This document shows, in pieces, positions 731-21,024 of a DNA stretch of 21,320 nucleotides. Below the pieces are notes generated by a model. The model made no database searches and was not told the origin of the DNA. It saw only the letters and a program-made list of their open reading frames with translations. A program made the translations under genes and the position numbers. Each line of letters begins with the position of its first letter. The stretch's first letter is position 1. The DNA is from Baffinella frigidus. Its lineage: Eukaryota > Cryptophyceae > Cryptomonadales > Baffinellaceae. The stretch spans positions 93,250 through 114,569 of the forward strand of contig MU646840.1 in assembly GCA_026770585.1 (NCBI GenBank). Reading direction: 5' to 3'.

Positions 731-1145
731 AAGAGCGACGCGGTCTTGGAGGAGGAGGAAGAGCCTACCGTAGGGTCTATGTCTTAACGCTTATAGGTTC
801 GTCACGAAATCCCTCCGAAATCCGCTGTGTGGATGTTTTCGTTTCTATACAAGAGGTTTCTTTACAAGTTTTTTTTCTGACAAATTGTGACAAACACAGG
901 ATGTTTTTGCAGGGGGGTGGGGGCAGGCTGGGGCTGAGAAAGAGCAATGCCATCCTGCAAGAGGAGGGGGGGGAGGAACCAGATTTGTTTCATTTCCATA
1001 AACGAGGTTTCTTTTCCTTAGGTTTCTTTTTTCACAGGGGTTTTCTGACAAATGCTGGATGTTGCGTTCGGTGCAGGGCGGGGAGGGCGGGCTGGGGCGG
1101 AGCAAGAGCGATGCGATCTTGGAGGAGGAGGAGGAACCCGACTTG
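726..1145 (+). repeat. three acceptor-side partial copies of exon A
   Basis: Copies at about 726-770, 909-981 and 1077-1145 repeat the G-rich acceptor region and the first codons of exon A (RKSDAVLEEEEE, RKSNAIL and SKSDAILEEEEEP in the matching frame). Each then diverges into unrelated intron sequence before the VLLELQG part. None has the exon's 3' end or donor, so they read as truncated upstream copies and not exons. Confidence 0.75.
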
Positions 1146-1227: not shown

Positions 1228-1347
1228 GGGGGGGAGGGCGGGCAGGGGGGGATAAAGAGCGACGCGATCTTGGAGGAGGAGGAGGAGCCGGATGTGCTGT
1301 TGGAGCTGCAGGGCATCAATGGGAAGGCGTCCCAGAAGCTCGAGAAG
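1228..1347 (+). CDS. CFAP70: CFAP70 exon A (acidic linker), copy 1
   Basis: Acceptor GCTGCAG ends at 1227 and the donor GTAGCG follows 1347. The 40 codons, phase 0 at both ends, read a Gly-rich start, then KSDAILEEEEEPDVLLELQG and ...GKASQKLEK. The acidic run sits where CFAP70 has a Glu-rich linker before the first conserved helix. A second full copy of the coding part follows at 1510-1632, so which one is spliced is undecided. An internal GGCAG at 1241-1245 is an alternative acceptor. Confidence 0.7.
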
Positions 1348-4300
1348 GTAGCGCGGGGTTCATTCACATCCGTGGGCCACGGAAACCATGTCACAATGGA
1401 ATCATAACACAATGGGGTTGGGGGTTGTTGATTGGGGGTAGGGGTTGGGGGGTTGGGGGTTGGGGGTAGGGGGGTGGGGGGTTAGAGTCTAGCGCTGCCC
1501 CAGCGCTAGTACGATGCTGTATGTGGCCTTCGGAGAAAGAGCGATGCGATCCTGGAGGAGGAGGAGGAGGAACCGGATGTGCTGTTGGAGCTGCAGGGCA
1601 TCAACGGGAAGGCCTCCCAGAAGCTCGAGAAGGTGTTGTACAATTCGGGTTGGCTTGGATTTTGGGTCGGGTCGGGCAATTCCAAATCCCAGATTTTTTT
1701 GTTAGGTGACTGGCTGAAATGAAGTTTTATGCTATCTTGTGCATGAGATTGATGACAAGATATCTTGTCTTTGCATCCCCTACCCATAAGATGACACAAA
1801 ACGACACAAAGCGCATTTTCGTCAGATTTCCGCCCGATCCGACCCTGAAAAAATCCAAGCCAACCCGAATTCTACAATAATCCCTAAACCCTGAACCCTG
1901 AACCCTGAACCTCTGAACCCTACACCCTAAACCTCGCAACCTGTTCGATGCATTTCATGCGCATAAACCCCAAACCCAATAATTCATATGCTAGAGGGGC
2001 CTATTGAAAACCGATGTGCTTTCAAAAGTGGGCATTTGTGTAGTAACTTTCGTTGATTGGTCACGTAACTCTGCATATATTGCACAGTCACGAGGTTGGA
2101 ACACCCTATCCTGGTACAAATATTCAAAAACCCAAATGTAAATAGGATCCTCCAGCATTCTCGAGTGGGCAGCCTCGAAATGTGTATCATGGCAAAGCCA
2201 GCGTGACTCACACAGAGCTGGGAGGATTTTTTTCGGAAAGGGTTTCACGCTGAGACACTTTCTTGGAGCCGGCTCTAACTATTTCTTTGCAAGTCAAGGA
2301 TTCAGGCGAATGTCCCACAGCTAACACCAAAACCCTAAACCCCACACCATGAGCCCCGCACCATACATCCCACACCCCACACCCTAAAACCCGCAACCGA
2401 AACCCCACACCCGAAACCCCACAGCCTTAACCTTAAACCTCACACACTAAAACCAACTCCCTAAACCCTAAACCCCACACCCCAAGCCCTTAAACCCAAA
2501 CTCTAAACCCTCAGCCCTAAACCCTGAACCCTGAACCCTAAACCCGGAACCTCAAACCCTCAAACCTAAACCCAATAAACTCTAAACCCTTAACCCTAAA
2601 CCCTAAACGCTAAACCCTAAACCCTAAACCCTAAACCCTAAACTCAATAAACCCTAAACCCTACGCCCTCAATCCCATCAAGAGGGGCGGCGGATAGACA
2701 TCCCACAACATGAACCCCGCACCATACACCCCGCACCATACACCCCACACCCCAAACCCCACACCCTAAAACCCACACCAGAAACCCCACAGCCTTAACC
2801 CTAAACACCACACACTAAAACCAACCCCCTAAACCCTAAACCCCACACCCTCAACCCTTAATCCCAAACCCAAGAAACCCGGAACCCCAAACCCTGAACC
2901 CTGCCAAACCCAAGAAACCCGGAACCCCAAACCCTAAACCCGAAACGATGCCCCGCGAGCAGGAGGGTCGGCGGCTAGACATCGCGCTCGAGCACCGGGC
3001 GGTCATGCGCAAGCGGGCGGTACACCCTACACCCTACACCCCACACCCCACACTCCACACCCTACACTCCACACACTAAACCCTAAACCCCAGACTGTAA
3101 ACCGTAAACTTGAAACCCGAAACCCTACACCATACACCCTTCGCTCCAACCCCCAAACCCTAAACCCCAGATCGTAAACCGTAAACCCTAATCCCCAGAC
3201 CCCAAACTCCAAACCCCAAAGCCCCAAACCCCAAACCCCAACCCCCAACCCCCAAACCCCACACCCCAAACCCCACACCCCACGCCCTACACCCCACACC
3301 CCAAAACCTCAAACCCTACCCTAGACCCTAAAACCCGACACAATAAAAAATAAAAAATAATATAAAAGTAAACAATAAACAATAGACAATAAACACTAAA
3401 CCGCAAACCGCAAACCCCCAGGTCGACGGGCTGCGGAAGCTCCTGAGTGAAGGCAAGCTCGAGATCGAGATCTCGCGCACGCTGCGCAGCGGCGAGCCGT
3501 AAGTTGCCCGCCCCTTTGAAGTGCCTCAGAATCCAAGCAGAATCCAGTGGCCCGCCCCGCGAAAATTGCCCCCTTCTTTGAAAGTTGCCCGCCCCTTTGG
3601 AAGTGGCCCCCTCTTTCACAGTCGCTTTTCCCCGATTTGGAAAAATCGAAGGGTTGCATCCATGCGGCGGGTATGTCTACGCGCAGAAACCCTCACCCAG
3701 TCCAACCAAGTCCCGATCTGTATCACAGCTTTGTTTGCACCTGGGGTGGCGGGAAAGGGGTGACTCCTGGTACACACCGGGGCAACTCGCGCATGGATGC
3801 CCTCCCTCTCCACGCAGTGGACTACGGACCTTTCATCAAAAGTCAACTTACCCTGTGGGTAGTCAACTTATGCAAATTTGGTCACGTTACCGCTAAATCT
3901 AGGGGTCCCGAAACCCTCGAAGCCCACCGTGTGGTTGGGGTGGATTCCCTCCGTGGGAGGGAATCAAACGGATTCCCTCCGTTTGATAGGTACGTATACG
4001 AGAAGAAGTACAGAGGGGTGGCGAAGTCCAACAAACCCCCGATATGCCTCAGGGGTTATTGGAAAGGTGAAGGTGTGTACCTGGAGTGCCCGAAAATGGG
4101 CCACCCCTGGTACAAACTGTTAATGGATTCTGTTTTTTCAACAATGGTTTCTGACCTTTGATAGATACGTGTACACGAAGAAGTACAAAGGGGTGGCCAA
4201 GTTCGACGGCGGGGACCGGGGAGACTTCTGCTTATACGTATCTGCGTTTAGGGTTTAGGGTTATATACGTATCTGTGCGGGTGGGGGTTGATTCAGGGCT

Positions 4301-7300
4301 ACTGCTGCGTGGTCGGCTGATGGACTGGGACCCGGCACGCCACACGTAGGACTACGAACCTTCCATGCAACTGATTCCCTCCTTTTGATAGGTACGTCTA
4401 CGAGAAGAAGTACAAGGGGGTGGCGAAGTTCGACGGCGGGCAGCTCCTCAGCCCCGGGGAGACCGCCACTTCCGCGCGCGTCTCCGTACAGGTTAGGAGC
4501 CTCGACCAAAAGTTGAGAGACAACGCCAAAAGTTGAGAAACACAGCGCAAAGTTGTGGAAAACTCAACTTTTGCTGCTCCTCAACCCCGGGGAGACCTCC
4601 ACTTCCGCGCGCGTCTCTGTACAGGTTATTAGCCTCTCGACCTCAGGAACAAAGATTGAGAAATAACGCCAAAAGTTGAGAAACAACGCCCTAAAATGAG
4701 ATAAACAACGCCAAAGGTTGACGATTTAGTACCAGGACCGTCAATTTGTGCGTCTCTGTATAGGTTATTAGCCTCTCGACCAAAAGATGACAAACAACGC
4801 CAAAAATTGAGGAAAAACGCCAAAAATAAGGAAAAAACAACAAGAGTTGGGAAACCGATGCCCTGGACCCCAACCCCCAAACCCTTATTACCCAACCCAA
4901 CATCCCACACACAGGGCGCACCCGACTTCGCACTCCCGACAGAAGAAGAGCTGGAGGCGACCCCACCCCCCGGTAAACCCCAAATCCCAAACCCAAAACC
5001 CAAAATCCAAAACCCAAAATCCAAAACCCCAAACCCAAAACCCAAAACCACAAACCACAAACCACAAACCCTAAACCGGAACCCCTAAACCCCAAACCCT
5101 AAACCCTCAAACCCAAACCCTAAACCCTAAACTCTAAACCCCAAAACCCACACCCCAAATCCCAAACCTCAAACCCCAGACCCCAAACCCCAAACCCGAA
5201 ACCCGAACCCCGAAACCCTCAGGGGGCGAGCCAGAGGCGGACGAGGGCGAGATATCCCCGTACGTCGCCGCAGGTTAACCCAAACCCCCTACCGACCCTA
5301 CCTTACCTACCCTACCCTACACCCTACCCTAAATCTTAAACCCTCGCCGCAGGTTTAACCTGAACCCTAAAACCCTAAACCCTAAACCCTAAAACATGAA
5401 CCTTAAGCCCTAAATCCTAAACCCTAAACCCTAAACCCTAAACCATAAACCCTAAACCCCAAATCCTGAACCCTCTCTAAACCCTCCCCCCTCCCAAACC
5501 CTAAACCCTCTCTAAACCCCCCCCCACCTAAACCATCCATAAACCCTCAACCTTAAACCATAAACCCTAAAACCTAAAACTCTAAACCATAAACCCTAAA
5601 ACCCAAAACCCTAGACCCTAAAACCCTAAACCCTAAATCCTAAACCCCCAAACCCCTAAAACCCTAAACCCTGAAAGCAGACACGTACATCATGGTCGCG
5701 CTGAGGGTGAAGGATCCGCTGAACCCGAAGCCGAAAACGCCCAAGATGCGGGTACCGCCCCCCCTCTGAACCGTCATATCATAACCATACCATACCATTA
5801 ATCACTGACCTTTAACCATCAACCATGAATCATAAACCATAAACCATAAACCATACACCACAAATCGTAAAATATAATCCATAAACCATGCCACACCATG
5901 CCATACCATGCCATACCATGCCATACACCATACACCATAAACCTTATCATCAACCATACCATACCATTAGCCATGAACCATGAACCATGAACCATGAACC
6001 ATGAACCATGAACCATGAACCATGAACCATGAACCATGAACCATGAACCATACCCGAAAGCCGAAACAGTGAAGTGCCGGCCGGCGGAATAACAGCCTCC
6101 GCCGCAGTTGTATGTGCTGACGTGTGTGCGTGACACTGATGACGTGTGTTCAACACTGCTGACGCGTGTGTCTGACAGTGCTGAAGCGTGTGCGTGACAC
6201 GGCTGACACGGCTGACCCCCTTCACAGATTCCGGAGGTGCGCGACTGGATCTCGACCCTCCCCCCCTCGACACGACCCCCACGCCGCTTGCTGACGCGTG
6301 TCCAACACTCATGACGCGTATGCCTAACACTCCTGACGCGTGTGTCTAGCACGACTGACGCGGGCCTAAAACTGCTGACGCGTGTGCGTGACACGGCTGA
6401 CGTGTGTGCGTGACACTGCTCACGCGTGTGTCTAACACGACTGACGCGTGTTGCTGACGCGTGTGTCTGACACTGGAATAGATTCCGGAACTGCGGGACC
6501 TGATCTCAACGCACTCGCCGCTCGACACGACGCAGTCGCGTGCTGATATGTGTGTCTAACACTGCTGACGTGTGTGTCCAACACCCCTGACGCATGTCTA
6601 ACACTGCTGGCGCGTGTGTCTGGCCCGGCTGACGCGTGCTTAACACGGCTGACGTGTATCTAACACTGCTGACGAATGACACTGCTGGCGCATGTGACAC
6701 CGATTCCGGAGGTACACGACCTGATCTCAACGCACTCACCTCTCGAGACTGACGTGTCTTCAACACTGCTGACGCGTGTGTCTATCCCGCATGAAGCGTG
6801 TCCATCACGGCTGACGTGTGTGTCCAACACTGCTGATACATATGTCTGACACGGCCCAAGCCGCGTGTCTAACCCTGCTGACGCGTGTGTCTCACGTGTC
6901 TGACGTGTGTCTGTACTGCACAGATTCCGGAGGTACGCGACCTGATCTCGACGCACTCACCCCTCGACACGACCCCCAAGCCGCGCGGGGCCGAGACACG
7001 CCTCCGGGAGGACTGCCGGTGCGACCCCAAACCCTCAACCCTGATACCTTAACCTGAAACAGCCCTAAACCCTGAACAATAAACCCTAAACCCTAAACCC
7101 TCAACAACACTCAACGCTAAACACTAAACCCTGAACTCGAAACCCGAAAACCGAAACCCTGAACCCGAGACCCGAAACCCGAAACCCGAAACCCTGAACC
7201 CTCAACACCCCTGAACCCCAAACACCCCCAAACCCTAAACCCTAAACCCTAAACCCTAAACCCTAAACCCTAAACCCTGAACCCTAAGCAACCCTAAGCC

Positions 7301-7389
7301 ATAACCCCTCCGACAGCAACCCTAAGCCCCAACCCCTCTGGCAGGGCGATAGAGGACACGCTCACGGACGAATACCCTCAACCCCAAAT

Positions 7390-7481
<92 letters not shown>

Positions 7482-13400: not shown

Positions 13401-16400
13401 AAACCCTGAACCCGAAACCCTCAACCCTAACCCCCAAACTCCAAACCCTAAAGCCTAAATCCTAACCCCTAAACCCTACCCACCCACAGCGCGTGACCGC
13501 CTCGCCGCACGACGCACAGCTCTGGTACGAGTTCGGCAAGATCGCGCTCCAGAATGGAACATTCGAGAAGGCGCACGACTGTCTTCGGGAGGCGCTCGCC
13601 ATCGACCCGCGGCACGTGCCGGCGCTGCTGACGTACGGCGTCTTTCTATGCCGCCACGACCGCTTCGCAGGTAGTAAAATGGAAGCATGTAGTTGTACAT
13701 CAGATTTAAGGGTTGTAGATCAGTTGTAAGTGGTGTACATGTATTGTAGACGCGGCACGTGAGGGCGCTTGCTGGCATGCAGCGTCTTTCTATGCGGCCA
13801 CGACCGCTTCGCAGGTAGCAAAATACACGCGTGTAGTCGTACATCAGTTGTAAGTGGTGTGCATGTCATGTAGACGTTGGCGTGCGGCGTCTTTCTATGC
13901 GGTCACGTCCGCTTCGTACCCGGGGTCTGTTGACTAATTATTGTTGACTAATCAGGAACCGTTCGCAGATGTTCGCACATGTATGTTGACTAACCATCAA
14001 CTGTTTGTTTGCAGATGCGGACAGCTATTTCCTCGGGGCGAACAACTGCAACCCGGAGTCGGTTGACTAACAGAAACCGTTTGCAGATGACTGTTGACTA
14101 ATCAGAATCAGATGGCCGTTGACCAATCGTGACGGTTGACTGATCATGACGGTTGGCTCGTACGCAGATGCCGAGAGCTGCTTCCTCGGGGCGACGAACT
14201 GCGACCCTTCAAACATCTTCTCGCGCGTGTTGACTTATCAGAAACTGACAGTTGACTTATCAAAAACCGTTCGCAGTTGACTAATCACAAACCGTTGGCA
14301 GATGCCGAGAGCTACTTCCTAGGAGCAACAAACTGCGACCCCTCGAACATCCAGGCGAGCGCGCTGCGCATGCTCTTCTACGATATGGAGTCACGTGACC
14401 TCGACCGCCGCGCTCTGCTCAAGAAGGTCTCATACTCATTTCATGCTATCTTAGGGTGGATTTTATGCGATGGTGAAGCTATGGCGAGACTAAGATAGCA
14501 AATTTGACCCGTGAGATAGGGTGGAGTCGATATGGAGTCACGTGACCTCGATCGCAGCTGCTCAAGAACGTCCAAGCCCGCTTGAAACTGCGTGTAAACG
14601 GCTCACGCCACATCCTCGATTTGGTCCACTTCGAGGGCTAGTGATCCGCACACACTTCTAGTTGTGTCTCAGTCTATTCGGGCTCACCCGTTTGGTGCGC
14701 CCGGGCTCTTTGGAGCGGGAAAGTTGACGGCTTTGTGCAGGATATCCAGCTTGTCAACTTGGGGATAGTCTAATGCCACAAGCTAACGCCAGCATACCCC
14801 TTCGCCTACGGTAGGAACCCCCACTCCTCCTACGACGTTTAAAACAAAAAGGTCTTTAAAAGTCGTAGGAGGGGGGATCCTACCGTAGGCAATCCGTAGG
14901 CTCTGAGTACCTCGCTGGCGTTAGCTTTTCAGATGAAGTCGGTCAACCCGAGTGAGGCTGAGCGAGGCGGCCTCCGATTCAATCTCATCCTGACACTACA
15001 GCGTGAACCCACCGCCAGTGCAACGCCCGCCCTGAAAACGCTCAACCCTACTCCCTAAATCGAGGAGTGTTCCGATTCTCGCCGTGTGTGCATCCACAGC
15101 AGAAAATTCCGCACACACGGGCCACTACAACACATCCTGGTTTTGGGTTTGGGGTTAAAGTCAAATGCTTCGGCCCGTCTAAAGACTGGAACCGCACCGT
15201 TCCAATCCAATACATCCATAGCGAACCCGACTTTTTCACCAGGCCCAGCGCAAACCCTAAACCCTAAACCCTAAACCTTAACCCCCGCAGGTGCTCGACC
15301 TGGAAATCGAGCAAGGGGTCACCCCCCGCTCAGCATACCTCCGCGCTGCCGAGTTCGCCACAGTAACCCCGAAACCCCAAACCCCACACCTCCAACCCCA
15401 AACCGGACATCTACCTAAACTCGATACCCTAGACCCGAGACCCGGAACCCGAAACGCGATGCCCGAAACTGGAAACTCGATGCCCGAACACCGAAACTGG
15501 ATCACCGAAGCCCGGAAGTCGATGTCTGAAACCCGAAACTCGATACCCGACTCGAACCTCAATACCCCAAACCCGAAACTCGATGTGTGAAAACTGAAAT
15601 CCCAAACCTGCCAAACCCCAACACCAACACCAACACCAACACCAACACCAACCCTAACACCAACACCAACACCAACACCAACACCAACCCCAAATCCCAA
15701 ACCCCACACCCCAAACCTCAAACTGCAAACAAGAGTTGAAAGCGCTCTCGCTGGTGAAGCGCTACCAGACACCCGAAACTCGATGCCCGATACCCGAAAA
15801 CTCGACACCCGAAACTCGATGCCCCAAACCCCAAACCCGCAAACAGGAGCTGAAAGCCCTCTCTCTCGTGGAGCGCTGCCAGTCGCAAGAGATTGCCAAA
15901 AACGGCAACTCCCAGGCGCGCCCCGCACCCTAAAACCCGAAATCCGGAACCCGGAATCCGAAACACGAAATCAGGAAACCGGAACCCGAAATCTGGGACC
16001 CGGAACACGAAATCCGGAACCCGGAACCCGGAACCCGGAATCCGGAATCCGGAACCTGAAACCCGAAACAACTTCCACCCCAAACCCCAAACCCCAAACC
16101 CCAAACCCCAAACCCCAAACCCCAAACCCTCAACCCTACGCCCTCTTCTCGAGGAGCTGCGGTTCCTGGCCGCGCGAATGGCCCGCGCGGATCCCCTATG
16201 CCCCAAACCCTAACCCCTAACTCATCCACGCCGGGTCATAAGTTCCTTTTTCACACACACTCGTTCGCGCTAAAAGTGTTGAGATGGCTTATCGTGGTAA
16301 ATATATATTTTTAACTCCGGCGGCAAACAGCTCCAATTCCCAACAGTTTTGGCGTGTTTCTCGGGTAGAATCAACTGTACTTCTAGATCGTGTAGTAAAA

Positions 16401-19400
16401 TAAAAAACGTTCAAATTTCGGCTTCTGACCTGGCGCGGAATGCAGGAAGTGCGGTTGCTAGTCGCGCGAATGGCCCGAACGGATCCCCTACGCCCCAAAC
16501 CCCAACCGAAAAGCGATCGGAAACGTGATCAATTGCTGTCTTTTCGCGTGTTTCCTGGGCAATAATCCAATAATTGGCTTAAGGATTTGTTTACAAGGGT
16601 AGCCTCGTGTGGGAGGTGATCCGTTCTCTTCAAAATGCGGAGATCGTGCCTTGATTGCCTGGTGTATCCCTCAAGCGGCGGACGGGCAAATATTCGCCCC
16701 AACTCGCCCGAGGCAGGTCATAGGGCCCTACCGTAGGGCGTATGCGCCTACTCGCCACTCAAGGGATCACAGGAGCTGCGGTTGCTAGTCGGGCGACCTA
16801 GTCGCTTGAATCATCCGCGCGGATCCCCTGCACCCCAAACCCCAAACCCCAGACCCTAACCCCAACCCACACAACAGGAGCTGCGGTTGCTAGTCGCGCA
16901 CGCACTCCTCACAGACGGGAAGTTTGAACACTGCGACATAAATAGCTCACACTCGATAGCATGAAACCCAACCCTAAGATAGCAAAATGCTATCTTAGGA
17001 GTGGAGTTCCCCTAAGATAGCAAAAGTTGAGGCTCGTAACCTGCAGCTCGACGCCTAAAATGCCGTCTGTGTCATCTTAAGGGTGGAATTACCCCAGGCT
17101 CTAATCCCTAAGCCATCTTCAGGAGCTGCGGTTGCTAGTCGGGCGCGCTCTCCACTGACCTGCATTGACGATGCGGGTGGGTTTCATGCTATCAACCCAT
17201 ATAACAGGAGTTCCCAACCCATATAACAGGAAACCCTAACCCCCAACTCGTATAACAGGAGCTGCGGTTGCTAGTCGGGCGCGCGCTCCTCGCAGACGGG
17301 AAGTTCGAACAGGCGCGCGTCGAGCTCCAGGTTTTGAGCCTCACTCTAGCAAATTTCACCCATAAGATAACACAATAAACACGATTCCACCCATAAGATA
17401 ACGTGGATTGTGTGCTATTTATGTCGCAGACGGGTCGAGCAGGTGACAAATTCCTCCCATAACATAGCACAAGTTCCACCCATAAGATAACACAAACGGT
17501 GTTTTAAGCGTCGGGCTCCAGGTGACGAGCCTCACTCTAGCAAATTCCACCCTTAAGATAACACAATTAACACAAATTCCACCCATAAGATAACACAATA
17601 AACACAAATCCACCCTTAAGATAACGTGGATCGTGTGCTATTTATGTCGCAGACGGGAAGTTCGAACAGGCGCGGGTCGAACTCCAGGTCCACATAGAGG
17701 GCTACCGATCTCCGCATTTTGAGGAGAACGGATCAACTCCCACACGAGGCTTCCCTTGTATACAGATCCTTAGGTCAATTATTGGATTATTGCCCGGGAA
17801 ACACGCCAAAAGACAGGATTTTGAATAACCCGTAAGCGATAAGACCTAGCATCCTACGGTAGGCAACCCGTAGGGACACAGGTGACGAGCCTCACTTGAT
17901 CCACCTGTTTCCACATGAAATTATCTCTTCACCCACCCCTACCACACAGCGGGCTTCGACGGCATTTTCGGGCGCTGAGAGCCCGAGTTTCCGTTACCGT
18001 ATCCGTATGAACCCCCCCATGTCCCTGCGGGTTGCCTACCGTAGGGTCCTGTGACTTATTGCTTAAGGGGTATTCAGAAATCCCTTGGAAGTCCGCTGTG
18101 TGGTAGCTCGCGCGGTCGGGTCGGCTGGATGCTGTGATGTACAGCTCTGTAACACCCACGATTTCGTGGTTTTATGAGTGTGGATAATCCACTTAACTTG
18201 AGCGTTGGGCTGCCTGACGCCGTGGCGGTCGTTGTTAATGCAATACCATCAGAGAGACGTTCTTTGTTTAATACAATACCATCAGAGAGACCTCGACCTT
18301 TGTCAATGCCACCATGGTTGTGTGTGGGTGCCCCTTAACTTCGGTTTGGGGCTGTACGAACGACTGGCGGTGCGCCGCTCTGTAACACCCAGGATTTCTT
18401 GGTGTTCTGGGTATGCATAATCCACTAACCTGCAGTCGGTATGTAATCCACTAACCTATAAATAATCGGTATGGATAATCCACTTACCTGGGTATGGATA
18501 ATCAATGCAGGTCCAGTAACCTGCATTGATGATCTGCAGACCAGGACGCGTTTGCAAACGACAGACGCTGCGCGGGTTTCGTCTGGGGTTGTGGGGGCTA
18601 GGGCGCGGGGGGTTCTCCGTAGCTGTGATGGTCCGGATGGGACACTGAACTTGATGGATGATCTGGAGGATACACTTGAGCGTTGAGTTGCAACTTGAGC
18701 GTGGAGTTCACTTGAGCGTGGAAATAACTTGAGCGTGGGGTTACTGAACTTGATTGGTGAAATTGCAGGAGGCGCTGGCAAACGATAGACGGTGCGCCGC
18801 TCTGTAACACCCAGGATTTCGTGGTGTTATGGGTATGGATCATCCAATCAACCGAATGATGGATAATCCACTGACCTGCATTGATGGGGTTGCAGGATGC
18901 GCTTGCGAACGACCGACGGTGCGCCGCCGCGATGATCTTGATGGGGCACTCCTTCTTCGAGGTGTGCCCTGATAGTGTGTTTCGTGTGGGAAGAGGGTAG
19001 CGGGTAGAGGGAAGAGGGTGGAGGGTGGAGGGTGGAGGGTAGAGGGTAGAGGGTAGAGGGTACACGAGTTATTTCCTCTGGGGTGTAGAGTTTGGGGTGT
19101 AGAGGATGCAGGACGCGCATGCGAACGACCCACGGTCGGTGAGGTAGAGCCGCCGCGATGATCTTGATGGGGCGTTCCTTCTTCGAGGTTCAAATCTATA
19201 AACCCCAAACCCCAAACCCTAAACTCCAATACCCTCTGCAAAAGGCCTAACCCCCAACCCCTCACCCCCCGCGTGGTTCATGAGGAGTGTGTCCTCAACG
19301 CCCTCCCTCTCCTCTGCAACCCCTCTAACCCCTCACCCCAAACCCTTAACCACAAACCCCAAACCCTAAACCCCAAAACCTTAACCATAAACCCTCAACC

Positions 19401-21024
19401 CTAAACCCTAAACCACAAACCCTTAGTTCAGGAGGGGCGGGTGGCCAAAGCCCCCCCCCCGGCTACAAACCCCCTACCCCCCAAACCCCCCAACCTCTGT
19501 GTGGTTCAGGAGGACGGTGCCCCAGACGCCCCCCCCCCACCTAGTCTCCACCCCTAACCCTCACATCGCGTCACCACCTGCGTGGTGCTCTGCAGAGGCA
19601 CTACCCTCTCGCCCTGCCCCAGCCGGGTTGACTTAACCGTTTTCACACCAAAAGTTGACGATGTGCCTGTGCAGGAGGACGGGTGGCCGAAAGCGCGGTG
19701 TGACATCGTGCGGTCTGGACCCTAAACCCGACACCCTCAACCCTAAATCCGACACCCTAAACCCTAAACCCCGACACCCTAAACCCTAAACCAGACACCC
19801 TAAACCCTAAACCCGACACCCTTAACCCTAAACCCCTGGACCCTCAACCCGACACCCTACACCCTAAACCCTAAACCCGACACCCTTAACACCAAACACC
19901 AAACACCAAACACCAAGCCCCAAACCCCACACCCCACACCCGAACACCCGGAACCCGGAACACTCAACCCGACGCCCTAAACACCAAATACTAAATACTA
20001 AATACTAAATACTAAATGCCGCACCATAAATCCGGAAGCAGGTCAGGGACGGCAAAAGAGCCGATCCAGTGGTTCGAACGCGGCCGCGCCAAAATCGTCC
20101 CTACCCACCTCCAGGTCCTACCCCCCCCCCCCGCGGACTGAACACACCACGAGTTGAAAGTGTTTTCGATTTAAAAGTGTATTGTAACAGGGTGTATTGT
20201 AAAAACACCACGGGTTAAAAGTGTGTTGTAAAAAGACCTCGCGGGTGGTTTCCCCCCCGTGTCCAATGTGTACCAGAAGAAGGACACGGGTCCTTCCGTG
20301 TTCGCGTGGCAGTCTTCTGCCAACGAAAGGACGGCACAGGAGCCGATCCAGTGGTTGGAGCGAAGCCGCGCGCCAAAATCGTCCCCACCCACCCACCTCC
20401 AGATCACCCGCCCCTCTTCACCCTGCCCGGAAACTGCTGCGTGGTGCACGTTTCCAGTGAAGCGACCCCCTCTCTCCCGGAAACTGATACGGGGCCCTCC
20501 GCGGAACATTCCAGCCATGTTCGGCACCCCCCCCGAAACCCCCCGGGAAAAGGCTGCCCTTTTTTTCGCAACGACTCCTCCCCCGGAAACTAAGGCGGGT
20601 TTCAGCTGGTGCCCCTAAACCGTAAACCAGGAGCCGAACCAGCCCCTCAACCCGAAACCCGAAAGCAGGAGCCGGACCATGAGCTGTTGCTCTGCCTGCA
20701 CTTGGCCAAGCTCTACCTCTCTACCGGCAAGGTAACCCCTAACCTCTGGCCCCGGCTGCCCCTCACCCGATCTAAACCCGGAACCCAAACCCCGAAACCC
20801 GAAACCCGAAACCCGAAACCCGAAACCATGTCTCACAGTGCACGCTTTCCCGGGTTTAGGCGTATAAAGCGAAGGCTGCTGAAGAAGGCTTCAGTGCGAG
20901 GCTGCCATTTCGCGCTGCAAACCCTATAACCTTTCCCGATTCAACCCGTGAACGCTAATCCCTACGAACCCCTCCCGACGTATTGCAGGCGTATGAAACG
21001 AAGGAGGCGTGCGAGGCTGCCCGT
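1228..21024 (+). CDS. CFAP70: CFAP70/FAP70 homolog, partial gene in about 25 exons
   Basis: This entry spans the whole gene; exons are listed separately. CFAP70 (FAP70, TTC18) is an axonemal TPR protein; in Chlamydomonas it belongs to the C2b projection of the central pair. Landmarks matching the vertebrate protein as I remember it, in the same order, are: the DIALEHRAVMRKR helix (exon B), YKGVAKF...LLSPG (D), DTYIMVALRV (G), RAIVDTLADEYRDMF (I), NSSGRYYEFKE (J), LANLYVRVQEVLNSEL (N), RDVALCESHLNQ (O), then TPRs with WYEFGKIAL, CLREALAIDPRH, LLTYGVFL (P) and ESYFLGATNCDPSN (Q). A second TPR block carries LLVGRALLADGKFEQARVEL (U), ILMGHSFFE (W) and LLLCLHLAKLYLSTGK (Z). Phases match at nearly every junction. 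The start codon, the N-terminal C2-like part and the last TPRs are not in the window. Exon order and phase make this strong; the exon choice in 14427-16140 is weak. Confidence 0.86.
1510..1632 (+). CDS. CFAP70: CFAP70 exon A, copy 2 (duplicate or alternative exon)
   Basis: Repeats the exon A peptide (RKSDAIL, six acidic residues, PDVLLELQGINGKASQKLEK) with an open frame and a donor GTGTTG. Its upstream half is unlike copy 1; the nearest acceptor is the weak GCGCTAG ending at 1509, which gives 41 codons in phase 0. Donor-side identity is high, so this is either the real exon, a mutually exclusive exon, or a recent donor-side copy of 1228-1347. Confidence 0.55.
1636..1877. mobile_element. MITE-like inverted-repeat element
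   Basis: Left arm from 1636 (TTGTACAATTCGGGTTGGC...) and right arm ending at 1877 (...GCCAACCCGAATTCTACAA) are imperfect reverse complements over about 45-55 bp. They enclose AT-richer sequence with GATATCTTGTC-type palindromes. There is no transposase frame, so it would be non-autonomous. It begins three bases after the exon A copy 2 donor GT. Confidence 0.75.
1885..2675 (+). repeat. intron with unique sequence (1985-2320) and degenerate CCCTAAA arrays
   Basis: Short ACCCTGA/ACCCTAA runs at 1890-1980 are followed by about 330 bp of ordinary sequence with no exon I can support. From 2325 there are degenerate heptamers (CCCTAAA, CCCCACA, CCCTGAA), most regular at 2590-2645. These are telomere-like but internal and imperfect. 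Confidence 0.8.
2680..2962 (+). repeat. acceptor-side partial copy of exon B plus telomere-like repeats
   Basis: At 2680-2700, AGAGGGGCGGCGGATAGACA nearly repeats the start of exon B (EGRRLDI) and then breaks off into CCCACA/CCCTAAA heptamers, which run to exon B. Confidence 0.6.
2963..3019 (+). CDS. CFAP70: CFAP70 exon B
   Basis: Nineteen codons, phase 0 to 0, between GCGAGCAG and donor GTACAC, reading EGRRLDIALEHRAVMRKRA. This continues in frame from exon A and into exon C. It corresponds to the conserved helix that begins with a Leu-Glu-x-Arg type motif in vertebrate CFAP70. The frame is open upstream to an ATG at 2948 (MPREQ), so a slightly longer exon with another acceptor is possible. 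Confidence 0.72.
3021..3421 (+). repeat. intron of telomere-like heptamers
   Basis: Intron B-C is mostly ACCCTACACC, CCCTAAA and CCCCAAA variants, then an A-rich AATAAACAATA stretch (3340-3400) before the CCCCCAG acceptor. No coding signal on either strand. Confidence 0.85.
3422..3498 (+). CDS. CFAP70: CFAP70 exon C
   Basis: Acceptor CCCCCAG and a textbook donor GTAAGT bound 77 nt, phase 0 to 2, reading VDGLRKLLSEGKLEIEIS then RTLRSGEP. It directly extends exon B and matches in placement the segment of CFAP70 that follows the first conserved helix. This is the most canonical donor in the gene. Confidence 0.82.
3499..4391 (+). repeat. intron C-D with duplicated donor flank and two acceptor-side copies of exon D
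   Basis: Just after the donor, AAGTTGCCCGCCCCTTTG is repeated (3501 and 3583), a duplication of intron start. Copies of the exon D start with its GATAG acceptor lie at 3990-4035 (YVYEKKYRGVAKSN) and 4165-4225 (YVYTKKYKGVAKFDGG, acceptor changed to GATAGA). Both share the CCTTTTGATAG-like flank of the real exon and then diverge. Long frames in 3547-4161 have no recognisable protein. Confidence 0.72.
4392..4491 (+). CDS. CFAP70: CFAP70 exon D
   Basis: One hundred nt, phase 2 to 0, between TTGATAG and donor GTTAGG. The split codon with exon C gives P, then YVYEKKYKGVAKFDGGQLL, SPGETATSARVSVQ. The YKGVAKF...LLSPG pattern matches the CFAP70 segment with a Gly-Val-Ala strand and a Leu-Leu-x-Pro-Gly turn. 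Partial copies lie on both sides: two exon starts upstream, two exon ends downstream. Confidence 0.85.
4505..4850 (+). repeat. donor-side copies of exon D within AACGCCAAAAGTTGAG repeats
   Basis: Exon D's 3' end plus donor is repeated at about 4575-4623 (CTCCTCAACCCCGGGGAGAC to CTGTACAG, then GTTATTAGCC) and again at about 4750-4763 (CGTCTCTGTATAG, then GTTATTAGCC). Between them lies an irregular tandem repeat built on AACGCCAAAAGTTGAGAAA. Spacing of the three donor ends is 132 and 140 bp. Confidence 0.78.
4915..4972 (+). CDS. CFAP70: CFAP70 exon E
   Basis: Acceptor CACACAG and donor GTAAAC bound 58 nt, phase 0 to 1, reading GAPDFALPTEEELEATPPP. Acidic and Pro-rich, as expected for the low-complexity linker before the DTYIMV segment. 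No family motif of its own; support is phase, splice signals and position. Confidence 0.7.
4979..5222 (+). repeat. intron of AAACCC heptamers
   Basis: CCCAAAA and CCCAAAT heptamers followed by CCCTAAA-type units fill the intron; the reverse complement is G-rich. Confidence 0.85.
5223..5273 (+). CDS. CFAP70: CFAP70 exon F
   Basis: Fifty-one nt, phase 1 to 1, between CCCTCAG and donor GTTAAC, reading G-GEPEADEGEISPYVAA plus the first base of the next codon. It leads straight into exon G, giving SPYVAADTYIMV, which fits the conserved Y-V-x-A-G-T-Y-I-V type junction of CFAP70. Confidence 0.78.
5274..5680 (+). repeat. intron with donor-side copy of exon F and telomere-like array
   Basis: At 5343-5352, CTCGCCGCAG followed by GTTTAACC repeats the last bases and donor of exon F (GTCGCCGCAG, GTTAACC). 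The rest is imperfect CCCTAAA repeat, regular in short blocks near 5370 and 5420. Confidence 0.75.
5681..5751 (+). CDS. CFAP70: CFAP70 exon G
   Basis: Acceptor AAAGCAG and donor GTACCG bound 71 nt, phase 1 to 0. Joined to exon F it reads DTYIMVALRVKDPLNPKPK then TPKMR. Vertebrate CFAP70 has a very similar strand (TYIV-hydrophobic, then Pro/Lys-rich) at this position. Good family evidence. Confidence 0.85.
5968..6052 (+). repeat. AACCATG heptamer tandem array
   Basis: About twelve near-perfect copies of AACCATG, flanked by looser CCATACC/CCATAAA units from 5780. The unit is 7 bp like the CCCTAAA arrays but a different sequence. Confidence 0.9.
6112..6923 (+). repeat. GCTGACGCGTGTGTCTAACAC minisatellite carrying three acceptor-side copies of exon H
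   Basis: An approximately 20-22 bp unit (CTGACGCGTGTGTCTAACAC and variants) fills the intron. Embedded in it are exon H starts at 6228-6289 (IPEVRDW, acceptor CAG kept), 6482-6541 (IPELRDLISTHSPLDTT, acceptor TAG) and 6703-6752 (IPEVHDLISTHSPLE, acceptor AG changed to CG). Starts are 254, 221 and 221 bp apart, counting the real exon. So minisatellite plus exon start was duplicated as a block. Confidence 0.85.
6924..7018 (+). CDS. CFAP70: CFAP70 exon H
   Basis: Ninety-five nt, phase 0 to 2, from acceptor GCACAG to donor GTGCGA, reading IPEVRDLISTHSPLDTTPKP, RGAETRLREDC. It is the most downstream and the only complete one of four related starts. Only it runs through the RGAETRL part in frame to a donor whose phase fits exon I. 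It corresponds to the Pro-rich link before the RAI-DEY motif. Confidence 0.78.
7022..7679 (+). repeat. intron with telomere-like arrays and two acceptor-side copies of exon I
   Basis: CCCTAAA and CCCGAAA units (7060-7280), then about fifteen AACCCTC heptamers (7377-7480). Copies of the exon I start with its GCAG/ACAG acceptor lie at 7345-7377 (AIEDTLTDEYP) and 7551-7582 (AIVDTLTDGCP), each breaking off into repeats. Confidence 0.85.
7680..7749 (+). CDS. CFAP70: CFAP70 exon I
   Basis: Seventy nt, phase 2 to 0, from CGGCAG to donor GTCAGT. With the split Arg codon it reads RAIVDTLADEYRDMFMRDDG, QAVQ. The R-A-I-x(4)-DEY-R-MF pattern is a conserved CFAP70 motif. Flanked upstream by exon-start copies and downstream by exon-end copies. 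Confidence 0.88.
7750..8651 (+). repeat. intron with donor-side copies of exon I and G-rich direct repeats
   Basis: Exon I ends recur at 7900-7936 (DMFMRDDGQAVQ then GTGAGT), 7967-7974 (CTGTCCAG then GTGAGT) and 8168-8203 (same peptide, donor changed to ACGAGT). They alternate with duplicated flank (TTCATAACCGG..CTAATTTT) and G-rich TTGGGG tracts. The stretch 8250-8640 has GTTTAGG repeats, then apparently ordinary intron with no exon I can support. Confidence 0.8.
8652..8732 (+). CDS. CFAP70: CFAP70 exon J
   Basis: Eighty-one nt, phase 0 to 0, from AACTTCAG to donor GTAAAA, reading VESSEDRRKQAVFSLNSSGR, YYEFKER. The NSSG-[RK]-Y-x-x-FKE motif matches one of the most recognisable stretches of CFAP70 (C-S-G-K-Y-x-x-FKE in vertebrates, from memory). 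Confidence 0.9.
8735..8850 (+). repeat. AAAACCC heptamer array (intron J-K)
   Basis: The whole short intron is an A-rich then CCCAAAA-type heptamer array, ending in the CCAG acceptor of exon K. Confidence 0.88.
8851..8916 (+). CDS. CFAP70: CFAP70 exon K
   Basis: Twenty-two codons, phase 0 to 0, from AACCAG to donor GTAGAG, reading VKNSIQRLVQERLVKLQTTC then YE. It continues the FKE(R) helix of exon J as in CFAP70 (K-x-x-[VI]-x-[RK]-[LI]-V-x-E-[RK]). Two donor-side copies lie downstream. Confidence 0.86.
8950..9094. mobile_element. short inverted-repeat (MITE-like) element
   Basis: About 42 bp at 8949-8990 (GGCCGAAAACTTTGAAACTT to AGTCAACT) is an imperfect reverse complement of 9054-9095 (GTTGACTGAAAGAGTTCG to TTTTCGAGAGCT). 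About 60 bp of spacer lies between the arms and there is no coding content. It sits between exon K and the first donor-side copy of that exon. Confidence 0.65.
9091..9297 (+). repeat. two donor-side copies of exon K
   Basis: 9091-9151 repeats most of exon K (SSMQRLEQERLIRLQTTCCE in the exon K frame) with donor GTACCC. 9274-9297 repeats only KLQTTCYE with donor GTACCC. Both lie downstream of the intact exon. Confidence 0.85.
9300..9796 (+). repeat. telomere-like degenerate repeats
   Basis: CCCTGAA, CCCTAAC and CCCCAAC units with no coding exon, ending in CCCACACAG, the acceptor of exon L. Confidence 0.85.
9797..9856 (+). CDS. exon L, Cys/His segment of unknown homology
   Basis: Sixty nt, phase 0 to 0, from CCACACAG to donor GTATAC, reading DLELIVTKCPETHHPLTTGH. 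It fits the frame between exons K and N, but vertebrate CFAP70 has no such segment there as far as I recall. Together with exon M it gives C-x4-HH...C-x2-C spacing, suggestive of metal binding. It may be a lineage-specific insertion or an exon not used in the main transcript. Confidence 0.55.
9880..10339 (+). repeat. 33-bp minisatellite with a 99-bp higher-order repeat
   Basis: Units such as TACTGACGCGTCCCCAGTCG(...) are 33 bp. A three-unit block of 99 bp starting at 9921 is repeated almost exactly from 10020. Units resume at 10230-10335 after a 95-bp interruption (10135-10228) with ordinary sequence. The last unit, GTGACCGGTAG, provides the acceptor of exon M. Confidence 0.88.
10340..10399 (+). 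CDS. exon M, CxxC segment of unknown homology
   Basis: Sixty nt, phase 0 to 0, from CCGGTAG to donor GTGCGC, reading VYGRYDKGPCKKCRQIVEDE. The CKKC knuckle plus the Cys and two His of exon L could form a small zinc site; this is inference. The acceptor lies inside a minisatellite unit, so the start is less certain than the end. Confidence 0.5.
10404..11100 (+). repeat. intron with ACCCTAC heptamers, a 20-bp direct repeat and CTATCTTA-family palindromes
   Basis: ACCCTAC heptamers occupy 10408-10510. About 250 bp of ordinary sequence without an exon follows. GCGCAAAACAGGGTTTGGAG occurs twice in tandem (10892 and 10912). CTATCTTAGGC/GAAGATAAGG inverted motifs lie at 10987-11060. Confidence 0.75.
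11101..11311. other. GA-rich tract and assembly gap (N run 11243-11311)
   Basis: A purine-only GA/GGGA microsatellite at 11105-11242 runs directly into 69 N. True gap length is unknown. Sequence resumes in CCCTCAA-type repeats. Confidence 0.95.
11330..11510 (+). repeat. ACACCCTC octamer array
   Basis: About ten tandem CACACCCT octamers (11385-11455) within CCCTTAA units, ending at the CTTAACAG acceptor of exon N. Confidence 0.88.
11511..11636 (+). CDS. CFAP70: CFAP70 exon N
   Basis: Forty-two codons, phase 0 to 0, donor GTACGG, reading GLALDLLDSQSDHGKRFLAN, LYVRVQEVLNSELRNLFQPK, QQ. The helix with LxxLYVxxxxxxxxxL spacing matches the CFAP70 stretch just before the first TPR (F-x-SELYVFLVDxM in vertebrates, from memory). 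Confidence 0.86.
11637..12319 (+). repeat. intron with one donor-side copy of exon N and three acceptor-side copies of exon O
   Basis: The exon N end recurs at 11820-11874 (VQEVLNAELRNLFQPKQQ then GTGCCT). A G-rich GGGTTTAGG stretch surrounds it (11685-11945). Before exon O, its GTGTACACGGACACGGAGCT start is repeated at 12094-12118, 12120-12140 and 12142-12186; the last extends to CGCGATTGTTTCCGCC. The section 12187-12300 is A-rich with no exon. Confidence 0.85.
12320..12439 (+). CDS. CFAP70: CFAP70 exon O
   Basis: Forty codons, phase 0 to 0, from GTGACAG to donor GTGAGA, reading MTRGVYTDTELKKILRDWFR, LAEEAQINRDVALCESHLNQ. It corresponds to the helical pair with E-x-N-x-(x)-A-x-x-[YH] pattern that opens the TPR region of CFAP70. 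Exon-start copies upstream, exon-end copies downstream. Confidence 0.87.
12440..13170 (+). repeat. three donor-side copies of exon O among GCTTTACACAGC repeats
   Basis: Copies end at 12661 (from 12583, FRLAEEAQISRDVALCESHL in frame), 12838 (from 12783) and 13066 (from about 13018). Each keeps the last codons and a GT donor, but the 5' extent is variable. Between them GCTTTACACAGC motifs recur more than ten times. Confidence 0.88.
13171..13489 (+). repeat. intron with AT-rich tract and telomere-like repeats
   Basis: An alternating TA-rich stretch (13188-13238), two more GCTTTACACAG motifs (13280, 13303), then CCCTAAC/CCCGAAA units up to the CCCACAG acceptor of exon P. No coding signal. Confidence 0.8.
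13490..13670 (+). CDS. CFAP70: CFAP70 exon P (TPR unit)
   Basis: The longest exon, 181 nt, phase 0 to 1, donor GTAGTA. Residues include WYEFGKIALQNGTFEKAHDC, LREALAIDPRHVPALLTYGV, FLCRHDRFA. It has the TPR signature (W-x2-[YF]-G-x2-A/L...G-x-[FY]-x-x-A-x2-C[LF]-x-x-AL-x-[ILV]-[DN]-P), and matches the CFAP70 W-x-x-YGxF...AQECFQKAL unit. Start is set by the phase-0 join to exon O. Confidence 0.92.
13671..14301 (+). repeat. donor-side copies of exon P, then acceptor-side copies of exon Q, in GTTGACTAATCAG repeats
   Basis: Exon P ends recur at 13749-13814 (RHV-like to CGCTTCGCAG, GTAGCA) and 13874-13917 (donor lost, CTTCGTACC). Exon Q starts recur at 14015-14061 (DADSYFLGANNCNPES) and 14168-14219 (DAESCFLGATNCDPSNI), each after a GCAG acceptor. 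Copies are linked by GTTGACTAATCAGAAACCG units. Both halves of the polarity rule are visible in one intron. Confidence 0.9.
14302..14426 (+). CDS. CFAP70: CFAP70 exon Q (TPR unit)
   Basis: 125 nt, phase 1 to 0, acceptor GTTGGCAG, donor GTCTCA. Joined to exon P it reads DAESYFLGATNCDPSNIQAS, ALRMLFYDMESRDLDRRALL, KK. It completes the TPR pair (x-A-E-x-[YF]F-x-x-AT-x-[CD]-P-[ST]-N in CFAP70). The 3' end is less certain because a diverged second copy of this end lies at 14529-14593. Confidence 0.87.
14529..14593 (+). CDS. second copy of exon Q 3' part, possible continuation LLKNVQARLKLR
   Basis: Repeats GATATGGAGTCACGTGACCT of exon Q but has a 3-base shorter GATCGCAG where exon Q has GCGCT. It then continues CTG CTC AAG AAC GTC CAA GCC CGC: LLKNVQARLKLR before GTAAAC. 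Vertebrate CFAP70 has a similar -QLQARM- helix after this TPR. If CGCAG (to 14557) acts as an acceptor, the coding piece is 14558-14593. Otherwise this is a donor-side copy that kept the true continuation while 14427 lost it. Confidence 0.4.
14780..14927. mobile_element. 148-bp MITE with nested inverted repeats
   Basis: Outer ends AAGCTAACGCCAGC (14780-14793) and GCTGGCGTTAGCTT (14914-14927) are perfect 14-bp inverted repeats. Inside, GCCTACGGTAGGA...CTCCTACGAC (14804-14836) pairs with GTCGTAGGAG...TCCTACCGTAGGC (14862-14890). The loop is A/T-rich and the element has no coding capacity. It ends five bases before a splice-acceptor-like AG. Confidence 0.85.
14933..15007 (+). CDS. possible linker exon R
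   Basis: After a good pyrimidine-rich acceptor (GCTTTTCAG) the frame reads MKSVNPSEAERGGLRFNLIL, TLQ. No donor with a phase that fits exon S is visible; a CGTGAACC near 15003 would give phase 1 where S needs phase 0. Position fits the variable region between CFAP70's two TPR blocks. Weak call. Confidence 0.35.
15008..15290 (+). other. intron-like sequence before exon S
   Basis: Mostly ordinary sequence with a short GGTTTTGGGTTTGGGG tract, then three CCCTAAA units and the ACCCCCGCAG acceptor. No coding exon supported. Confidence 0.55.
15291..15362 (+). CDS. CFAP70: CFAP70 exon S (start of second TPR block)
   Basis: Twenty-four codons, phase 0 to 0, acceptor CCCCGCAG, donor GTAACC, reading VLDLEIEQGVTPRSAYLRAA, EFAT. 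Its position and helical pattern fit the stretch before the second TPR block. No strong motif of its own. Confidence 0.62.
15363..15846 (+). repeat. intron with CCGAAACTCGATGCC units, ACACCA array and acceptor-side copy of exon T
   Basis: An irregular tandem repeat of ACCCGAAACTCGATGCCCGA type occupies 15420-15580 and recurs at 15772-15820. A hexameric ACACCA array lies at 15619-15684. At 15733-15770 the exon T start recurs (ELKALSLVKRYQ). Confidence 0.8.
15847..15915 (+). CDS. CFAP70: CFAP70 exon T (donor uncertain)
   Basis: Acceptor AAACAG, then ELKALSLVERCQSQEIAKNG, NSQ in phase 0, helical and in frame after exon S. The frame runs to a stop at 15931. No GT donor with phase 0 is present. 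A GC donor after 15915 (CCCAG, GCGCGC) is the only phase-0 option I see, so the 3' end is tentative. Confidence 0.5.
15930..16140 (+). repeat. CCGGAAC and CCCCAAA heptamer arrays
   Basis: CCCGGAA/CCGAAAT heptamers (15935-16070) change abruptly to CCCCAAA heptamers (16078-16128). The long frames on both strands here are repeat translations. Confidence 0.85.
16151..17258 (+). repeat. five acceptor-side copies of exon U in a mosaic intron
   Basis: Exon U starts (GAGCTGCGGTTGCTAGTC) recur at 16154-16200, 16446-16490, 16773-16828, 16878-16937 and 17123-17155; each but the first has an AG acceptor in front. They extend different distances into the exon; the fourth reaches DGKFE. Between them are a CCTACCGTAGG element, CTATCTTA-family motifs and short CCCCAAA runs. 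Confidence 0.9.
17259..17330 (+). CDS. CFAP70: CFAP70 exon U (TPR helix pair)
   Basis: Twenty-four codons, phase 0 to 0, acceptor TATAACAG, donor GTTTTG, reading ELRLLVGRALLADGKFEQAR then VELQ. It is the only copy with both ends intact. LLV-x-A-x-x-L-x-x-G-x-F-x-x-A-x-x-x-L is a TPR helix A-turn-helix B, and matches the CFAP70 YYLVLAQTHILKKNFAKAEE unit as I remember it. Confidence 0.88.
17331..17706 (+). repeat. donor-side copies of exon U and CCCATAAGATAACACAA repeats
   Basis: Exon U ends recur at about 17424-17442 (altered), 17508-17521 (GGGCTCCAG then GTGACG) and 17651-17687 (DGKFEQARVELQ then GTCCAC). ACCCATAAGATAACACAA units are repeated about eight times, alternating with GAGCCTCACTCTAGCAAATT. 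Confidence 0.85.
17817..18140 (+). repeat. CCTACCGTAGG-family dispersed element
   Basis: CCTACGGTAGGCAACCCGTAGG near 17853 and GGTTGCCTACCGTAGGGTCC near 18028 are inverted relatives flanking about 170 bp. The section 18028-18112 resembles 763-838 (both end AAATCC.../GTCCGCTGTGTGG-like). No exon supported here. Confidence 0.65.
18143..18895 (+). repeat. array of acceptor-side exon W copies with CTCTGTAACACCCAGGATTT units
   Basis: Exon W starts appear at 18354-18376 (fragment), 18545-18574 (DAFANDRRCA) and 18767-18797 (EALANDRRCAAL then stop). CTCTGTAACACCCAGGATTT with GGTATGGATAATCCACTAAC recurs at about 18144, 18378 and 18798. GAACTTGAGCGTGGAGTT units lie at 18673-18760. Confidence 0.85.
18896..18961 (+). 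CDS. CFAP70: CFAP70 exon W (TPR helix pair)
   Basis: Twenty-two codons, phase 0 to 0, acceptor GTTGCAG, donor GTGTGC, reading DALANDRRCAAAMILMGHSF then FE. It follows exon U as helix A of the next TPR (A-x-x-x-[DN]-x-x-x-x-x-x-x-x-x-x-G-H-x-x-[FY] in CFAP70). Of four copies it alone is open from acceptor to donor. Confidence 0.86.
18990..19431 (+). repeat. GGGTAGA heptamers, a broken exon W copy, and telomere-like repeats
   Basis: GGGTAGA/GGGTGGA heptamers at 18996-19060. 19112-19187 repeats exon W from acceptor to donor, but a 14-base insertion after ACGGTCGG and a TAG stop break its frame. From 19199 there are CCCAAAC/CCCTAAA units. Confidence 0.85.
19432..19674 (+). repeat. two or three acceptor-side copies of exon X
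   Basis: GTTCAG followed by GAGGGGCGGGTGGCCAAAGC (19432-19459) and GAGGACGGTGCCCCAGACGC (19510-19531) are starts of exon X that fade into C-rich sequence. A more decayed one is at about 19274-19303. The remainder is C-rich with no gene. Confidence 0.75.
19675..19712 (+). CDS. CFAP70: CFAP70 exon X
   Basis: Thirty-eight nt, phase 0 to 2, acceptor CTGTGCAG, donor GTCTGG, reading EDGWPKARCDIV plus a split Arg codon. It supplies the turn and second helix of the TPR started in exon W (x-x-A-K-x-C-Y-E-x in CFAP70) and joins exon Y in phase. Confidence 0.78.
19718..20041 (+). repeat. intron of CCCTAAACCCGACA units
   Basis: Units alternate CCCTAAA and CCCGACA as a 14-bp dimer of heptamers (19718-19885), then CACCAAA and ATACTAA heptamers (19890-20020). 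Confidence 0.88.
20042..20114 (+). CDS. CFAP70: CFAP70 exon Y
   Basis: Seventy-three nt, phase 2 to 0, acceptor GAAGCAG, donor GTCCTA. With the split codon it reads RSGTAKEPIQWFERGRAKIV, PTHLQ. Phase fits both exon X and exon Z. It lies in a loop region of the TPR block where I cannot point to a vertebrate motif. Confidence 0.72.
20115..20668 (+). repeat. intron with a downstream copy of exon Y and a fragment of exon Z
   Basis: 20323-20402 repeats exon Y (EPIQWLERSRA in frame) with an extra GC and CCCAC that shift the frame; the GT donor is replaced by AT. Before it, 20140-20240 has short duplicated AAAAGTGTATTGTAA motifs. GAGCCGAACCAG at 20631-20642 with CCAG in front is a short exon Z start. 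Confidence 0.75.
20669..20731 (+). CDS. CFAP70: CFAP70 exon Z (TPR helix)
   Basis: Twenty-one codons, phase 0 to 0, acceptor AAAGCAG, donor GTAACC, reading EPDHELLLCLHLAKLYLSTG then K. It matches helix A of the next CFAP70 TPR (D-x-x-x-x-x-L-x-L-[GA]-x-[IL]-YL-x-x-x). Confidence 0.87.
20732..20988 (+). repeat. intron with CCCGAAA heptamers and an acceptor-side copy of exon AA
   Basis: CCCGAAA heptamers at 20785-20826. At 20860-20910, after TTTAG, GCGTATAAAGCGAAGGCTGC to GCGAGGCTGCC is an altered copy of exon AA with internal expansion. Confidence 0.75.
20989..21024 (+). CDS. CFAP70: CFAP70 exon AA (may itself be a partial copy)
   Basis: Twelve codons, phase 0 to 0, acceptor ATTGCAG, possible donor GTGTCT, reading AYETKEACEAAR. 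This would be the turn and helix B after exon Z (E-Y-E-x-A-K-x-x-Y-x-x-A-C in CFAP70). Because starts of the same exon also occur at 20860 and 21167, the real exon may lie beyond the window. This one could then be an upstream copy. Confidence 0.55.

Follow-up and report, generated by a model that had tools for sequence, protein, structure and literature searches.

Exon-edge copies of fixed polarity suggest that introns of a CFAP70/FAP70-like gene of Baffinella frigidus grew by tandem duplication across splice junctions

How can an intron become longer and leave the encoded protein unchanged? The lengthening of introns is mostly attributed to transposons and slippage. A stretch of 21,320 nucleotides from Baffinella frigidus (assembly GCA_026770585.1, contig MU646840.1, positions 93,250 to 114,569 of the forward strand; hereafter the window, with positions counted from its first letter) raises the question of whether duplications spanning splice junctions may contribute as well. 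A preliminary description of this DNA had proposed that at least 14 exons have partial copies in their adjoining introns, that copies of exon starts mostly lie upstream and copies of exon ends downstream of the intact exon, and that this pattern reflects stepwise intron growth by tandem duplication.

The window carries a CFAP70/FAP70-like gene on its + strand, which we modelled as 26 exon units, A and B being counted separately, with exon borders placed by reading frame, homologue alignment and AG/GT dinucleotides. These units, all on the + strand, are A (1248..1347; its start is uncertain, at a G run, and it is a near-whole duplicate of B), B (1534..1632; acceptor unclear), B2 (2963..3019; in the spliced frame), C (3422..3498), D (4392..4491), E (4915..4972), F (5223..5273), G (5681..5751), H (6924..7018), I (7680..7749), J (8652..8732), K (8851..8916), L (9797..9856), M (10340..10399), N (11511..11636), O (12320..12439), P (13490..13670; TPR), Q (14302..14426; TPR), R (15291..15362), S (15847..15915; GC donor), U (17259..17330), W (18896..18961), X (19675..19712), Y (20042..20114), Z (20669..20731) and ZZ (20989..21022; its end set by GT). 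A and B (1248-1632) encode nearly identical 33 residues, and a run of N is found at 11243-11311, inside the intron between M and N. The spliced model with B, leaving A out, is an open frame of 661 aa with no stop. The hand-joined protein matches TPR families (TPR_19, E 1.2e-12), and its 28 matches among solved structures include CFAP70/FAP70 chains (9ijj chain k, E 9.8e-27; 7n61 chain 1D, E 8.7e-18), although the hit with the best E-value is an engineered TPR protein and designed TPR proteins make up most of the remaining ones. Judging from these matches, the gene product looks like a CFAP70/FAP70-like ciliary TPR protein. When 7,992 candidates were scored, the homologues named to organism came from the cryptophytes Guillardia theta and Hanusia phi, and the nearest scored proteins, from the sources jgi and ena, were P0001 (68% identity, 85% of the query) and P0002 (74%, 75% of the query). 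Exons L and M (9797-10399) encode a stretch that aligns with P0001 and P0002 and, by the alignment rule applied to the spliced model, with none of the other nine aligned homologues.

We then aligned each exon unit to its two adjoining introns and called any copy scoring at least 30 an echo. This gave 39 echoes, all on the + strand, adjoining 14 of the 26 exon units. Start echoes lie upstream of A (727..765, 936..970), B2 (2682..2702), D (3990..4027, 4166..4213), H (6228..6287, 6482..6531 and 6703..6749, the last with its acceptor lost), I (7345..7376, 7551..7582), Q (14015..14054, 14168..14217), S (15733..15768, acceptor lost), U (16450..16468, 16773..16795, 16878..16930, 17123..17153) and W (18545..18573, 18769..18800), while end echoes lie downstream of D (4573..4624, head to tail), I (7900..7935, and 8168..8203 with its donor lost), K (9272..9297), N (11816..11874), O (12586..12661, 12784..12838), P (13751..13814, and 13878..13916 with its donor lost), Q (14528..14568) and U (17647..17687). 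Three whole-exon echoes, every one downstream, belong to K (9087..9151, acceptor lost), W (19112..19187) and Y (20329..20393, both splice sites lost). The six remaining echoes are inner pieces, five of them upstream, from A (1104..1141, in a 151-bp tandem array), O (12095..12113, 12120..12139, 12142..12184) and W (18357..18378), and one downstream, from O (13019..13059).

The side on which a copy lies follows the exon end that it retains. Start echoes were found 19 times upstream and never downstream, end echoes never upstream and 11 times downstream (Fisher 1.8e-8), such that tabulating side against missing end, as had been proposed, placed all 30 one-ended echoes on the predicted side. This Fisher value overstates the certainty because copies of the same exon, starts and ends alike, do not represent independent events; counted by exon side, nine upstream sides (A, B2, D, H, I, Q, S, U, W) and eight downstream sides (D, I, K, N, O, P, Q, U) obey the polarity and none disobeys it, that is, 17/17. 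Leaving out exon A, with its uncertain start, left 17 start and 11 end echoes. At a laxer score of 24, the list grew to 42 rows, including a single end copy upstream. Using only the 40-nt exon ends as queries at score 30, we found 10 start copies upstream and 10 end copies downstream, with exceptions at K, W and Y, where the copies are whole, and at U, whose two 40-nt ends overlap; score 24 added exceptions at S and ZZ. Upstream of exon ZZ lies an almost complete copy that is split into pieces scoring 27 and 22, below our cut-off.

The matches are also confined to neighbouring sequence. At a score of at least 30, 20 of 52 pairings of an exon with an adjoining intron gave a match, compared with 1 of 650 other pairings and 0 of 52 on the opposite strand, and the single match outside adjoining introns is that of exon B with the 5' flank of its duplicate A. 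These controls confirm that the echoes of neighbouring exon edges at this locus are real and well above chance. The list of echo-bearing exons given earlier needs some amendment, bearing in mind that our exon letters are our own and that those of the preliminary description came without coordinates, such that a one-for-one match is not assured. Its echoes of F and of the start of Z are at chance level (scores 18 and 17) and that of X is marginal (23), given that 1% of control comparisons with the 40-nt queries reach 22. Exon O, named for both sides, does have end copies downstream, and the copies on its upstream side are without the exon's initial 12 nt; Q, named for the upstream side only, has a downstream copy in addition to its upstream ones; and A and B, listed as having echoes, are near-whole copies of each other.

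Polarity of this kind is what junction-spanning tandem duplication should leave behind, since, when an acceptor is duplicated in tandem, the remainder of the exon follows on from the downstream copy alone, and the reverse applies at a donor. The polarity is therefore an outcome of the geometry of duplication, and not a separate law or an independent splicing rule. It nevertheless has discriminating value, by the reasoning that local copies pasted at random would be expected on both sides of an exon.

Self-alignment of the window shows signs of a tandem arrangement at some exons. Copies stand head to tail under all three settings used at A (offset 151), D (133) and H (216-258), under two of the three at O (222) and at I, and under one at P and Q; at the remaining echo-bearing exons, gaps separate the copies, which is a point against tandem duplication. 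Head-to-tail rows of B2, E, F, G and S disappeared once short-period arrays were masked, and that of L rests on a minisatellite; none of these was counted. With short-period arrays masked (27% of the window), the window showed at least 61 direct repeats, all but one of which (60) are spaced less than 1 kb apart, compared with at least four inverted repeats (three spaced less than 1 kb), these counts being lower bounds because the setting missed matches, for example at P and Q, that were seen otherwise. Local direct duplicates cover at least 4,535 of the 13,281 unmasked bases outside exons. The lone direct repeat beyond 1 kb pairs 763-832 with 18034-18103, 17 kb apart and 80% identical. The inverted repeats, of about 61-121 bp, lie at 14770-14924, 16531-16646/17706-17821, 17028-17088/17474-17534 and 17816-17878/18020-18083, and are possibly mobile elements.

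The duplication steps (n=39) comprise two of 22 and 25 bp and others of 105 to 357 bp, with a median of 190 bp, and we claim no peak of preferred size among these 39. In many cases, the copied segment runs past the splice junction. Among 28 one-ended echoes (the two rows of A being dropped, with A and B left out), the alignment crosses the junction into the intron side by at least 5 nt in 19 and by at least 20 nt in 15, and the 20-nt intron flanks, compared without gaps, have a mean identity of 0.42, as against 0.26 at random places. In 9 of the 28, similarity continues into the intron side for no more than 4 nt, an abrupt end that is sharper than expected under tandem duplication and that counts against it. 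The stepwise character of the proposed growth finds indirect support in the several copies beside single exons, and none in their divergence, as identity showed no gradient with distance from the exon (Spearman 0.07, p 0.66).

Splice signals in the model are sparse. Modelled donors (n=25) comprise 24 GT and one GC and share little else except a preference for C at +7 and +8, and modelled acceptors (n=24) show little beyond (C/T)AG and a weak C at -9 and -10. Two branch-like motifs near acceptors, YTRAY (13/24, compared with 0.33 in random intronic stretches) and AAACCC (11/24, compared with 0.23), came from unplanned comparisons and were set aside as too weak. Long degenerate heptamer arrays (AAACCCN), which we take to resemble the TTTAGGG telomere repeat, occur throughout the introns, for example at 2316-3420, 4975-5675, 7060-7550 and 19719-19982. 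On the + strand, AAACCC occurs 212 times and GGGTTT 23 times, and AAACCCN/NGGGTTT cover 1,644 of 18,816 bases outside exons compared with 0 of 2,084 exon bases.

What has become of the copies can be judged by comparing them with their exons, and the counts given here for amino acids, indels and splice dinucleotides leave out A and B. The mean identity of the echoes is 0.897. Exons and echoes differ at 61 amino-acid positions. Among six homologues, the exon residue alone was found in 42 cases, the residue of the echo alone in three, both in seven and neither in nine, and seven of the eight echo indels shift the reading frame. The aligned echo codons (A and B dropped) contain no stop codon. Splice dinucleotides were kept in 26 of 34 cases (acceptors 15/20, donors 11/14), and since an identity of about 0.9 per base predicts a retention of about 80% (about 27/34), the splice sites of the echoes, seen in the preliminary description as decoys that could give alternative isoforms, seem neither kept nor purged beyond chance. 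Altogether, the exon is conserved and its copy decayed.

One aspect of this divergence is less simple. Counting each exon site once, with A and B out, the differences are 48 synonymous, 41 non-synonymous and one stop, giving a synonymous share of 0.533 compared with the 0.386 expected for a neutral echo beside a constrained exon if mutation rates are equal (p 0.005). A parsimony split, for which the laxer list of 42 rows was used (A and B out), assigned 47 synonymous and 37 non-synonymous changes and two stops to the echoes, and six synonymous and five non-synonymous changes to the exons. Part of this synonymous surplus would be accounted for if the echoes were copied at various times while the exon itself was accumulating silent changes. 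Other possible contributors are a higher rate at third positions and a past phase in which the echoes served as exon.

This surplus, together with the 26 of 34 retained dinucleotides and the absence of stops among aligned codons, could be taken to mean that the echoes are working alternative exon ends, selected as alternative splice sites. We consider this quite unlikely, since the retention equals the chance expectation at this identity, nearly all indels shift the frame, the residues of the echoes depart from the homologues by 42 to 3 and different copying times would already give part of the surplus. A history in which whole exons were duplicated in tandem and then decayed, some copies still being alternative exons and the partial echoes being remnants, can point to the three whole copies (K, W and Y), the A/B pair and the split, sub-threshold copy of ZZ. 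Decay of whole copies would, however, leave either end on either side of the exon, whereas every one-ended echo keeps the predicted end, and whole copies are just 3 of the 39 echoes, which leaves this history decidedly unlikely. The contig is rich in repeats and has an N run in one intron, as might be expected if haplotypes or reads had been stacked in tandem during assembly; such stacked sequences would be nearly identical, whereas the echoes are only about 0.90 identical, have indels and have lost splice sites, so that an assembly error appears extremely unlikely.

Introners or other mobile elements might instead have built these introns. Introners are in print as intron makers in many lineages (PMC9860276), the heptamer arrays recur across many introns of the window, and a few sequences are common to different introns or flanks (the direct pair 763-832/18034-18103 and the inverted pairs 16531-16646/17706-17821 and 17028-17088/17474-17534). 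We nevertheless regard this origin as very improbable, as all direct repeats except one are spaced less than 1 kb apart once the arrays are masked and the echoes match the neighbouring exon. The remaining alternative is that the introns were born by tandem duplication of exon segments containing AGGT, the echoes being relics of birth and not of growth. P0001 runs collinear with the model as one protein, uninterrupted, across 20 junctions, from D/E to Y/Z. The ends of P0001 and P0002 look, by eye and from the protein sequences, like unspliced read-through, and if that of P0001 is such, its source would be a relative without those 20 introns, which would fit a gain of introns here if the record is an unspliced ORF. 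Viral contigs searched with P0001 gave eight matching stretches, none of them a relative, in a set that may have excluded the genome of the window itself and those closest to it. Against birth from AGGT segments, introns did not resemble the following exon at their starts, or the preceding exon at their ends, more than in shuffled pairings (p 0.14 and 0.38; 23 introns), and in many echoes the copy continues past the junction into intron sequence, which argues that the intron existed first. A spliced junction is crossed by two echoes, with scores of 45 and 53 (controls at most 23 in 552 pairs); these reach only 7 and 6 nt into the upstream exon, so that acceptor sequence alone can explain both. 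We therefore judge this birth scenario unlikely.

We thus favour, with a probability of about 0.8, the reading that the introns of this gene grew, at least partly, by repeated direct tandem duplications of about 100-350 bp spanning splice junctions. The tandem duplication proposed at the outset is well supported at this locus in that the copies are local, on the same strand, polarised, divergent and partly head to tail, with the echo being the decayed partner; its polarity is not a rule of its own. When the duplicated unit spans an acceptor, a partial copy made of the intron tail and the exon start would come to lie upstream of the intact exon, and when it spans a donor, a partial copy would lie downstream. 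If the outermost sites, namely the first donor and the last acceptor, are then used, the extra unit would be absorbed into the intron and the protein would stay unchanged; survival of the gene would require just this choice of sites. Absorbed copies would then decay, the exon remaining under selection. We infer this order of events, the splicing at outer sites and the harmlessness of the duplications from the pattern of the copies.

The evidence comes from one locus and one gene. Tentatively, and as something possible but short of likely, junction-spanning tandem duplication might be an ordinary engine of intron growth in many genes of the lineage, a ratchet hidden by the use of outer sites, such that introns would preserve, layer upon layer, former versions of the exon edges, of which some might still function as alternative ends of exons. 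Exon-edge copies can be traced to their source and side, which makes the process countable, and the echoes may serve as fossils of the exon. They also raise the question of how splicing picks the right sites with dozens of look-alikes nearby and with donors that share little beyond GT.

How does this compare with known systems? The preliminary description had said that no named account of such a process, as a genome-wide mode of intron growth, was known, and this goes too far, since intron gain by tandem duplication over an intron-exon boundary has been published (PMC4974935). In that potato case, a duplication covering an intron's 3' end together with the beginning of the exon after it, bringing a second acceptor as it would here, made a new intron, with the upstream partial copy staying exonic, whereas here the copy lies inside the intron. 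The locus described here also has echoes beside 14 exon units of one gene, unlike the potato case.

A further model concerns the tandem genomic duplication of exonic segments containing AGGT, and is presented with a tally in a review (PMC3443670) whose references include Hellsten 2011 and Gao and Lynch 2009. In this model, a pair of splice sites arises through tandem duplication and splicing removes the additional copy, as we propose to be the case here; the AGGT model makes a new intron from an exon, however, and the terminal-repeat signature that it predicts was not seen in this gene. Novel intron positions in Drosophila have likewise been ascribed to regional tandem duplication, and there, as here, duplicated exon sequence became intron (PMC2891723). 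Those cases are few, spread across many genes and judged from relatives, whereas ours are dozens of copies in one gene, judged from the window itself. Cryptophyte genomes are described as repetitive in PMC12220804, the portions of which considered here say nothing on exon echoes. Introners resemble the present process in being able to fill many introns and differ in being mobile families across genes (PMC9860276), whereas the copies in this window are mostly local and direct, echoing the edge of the neighbouring exon. Among the literature matches listed, none describes serial junction-spanning duplication that lengthens existing introns. Junction-spanning tandem duplication is thus known as a route to new introns, and its serial use in lengthening introns would be the new element here.
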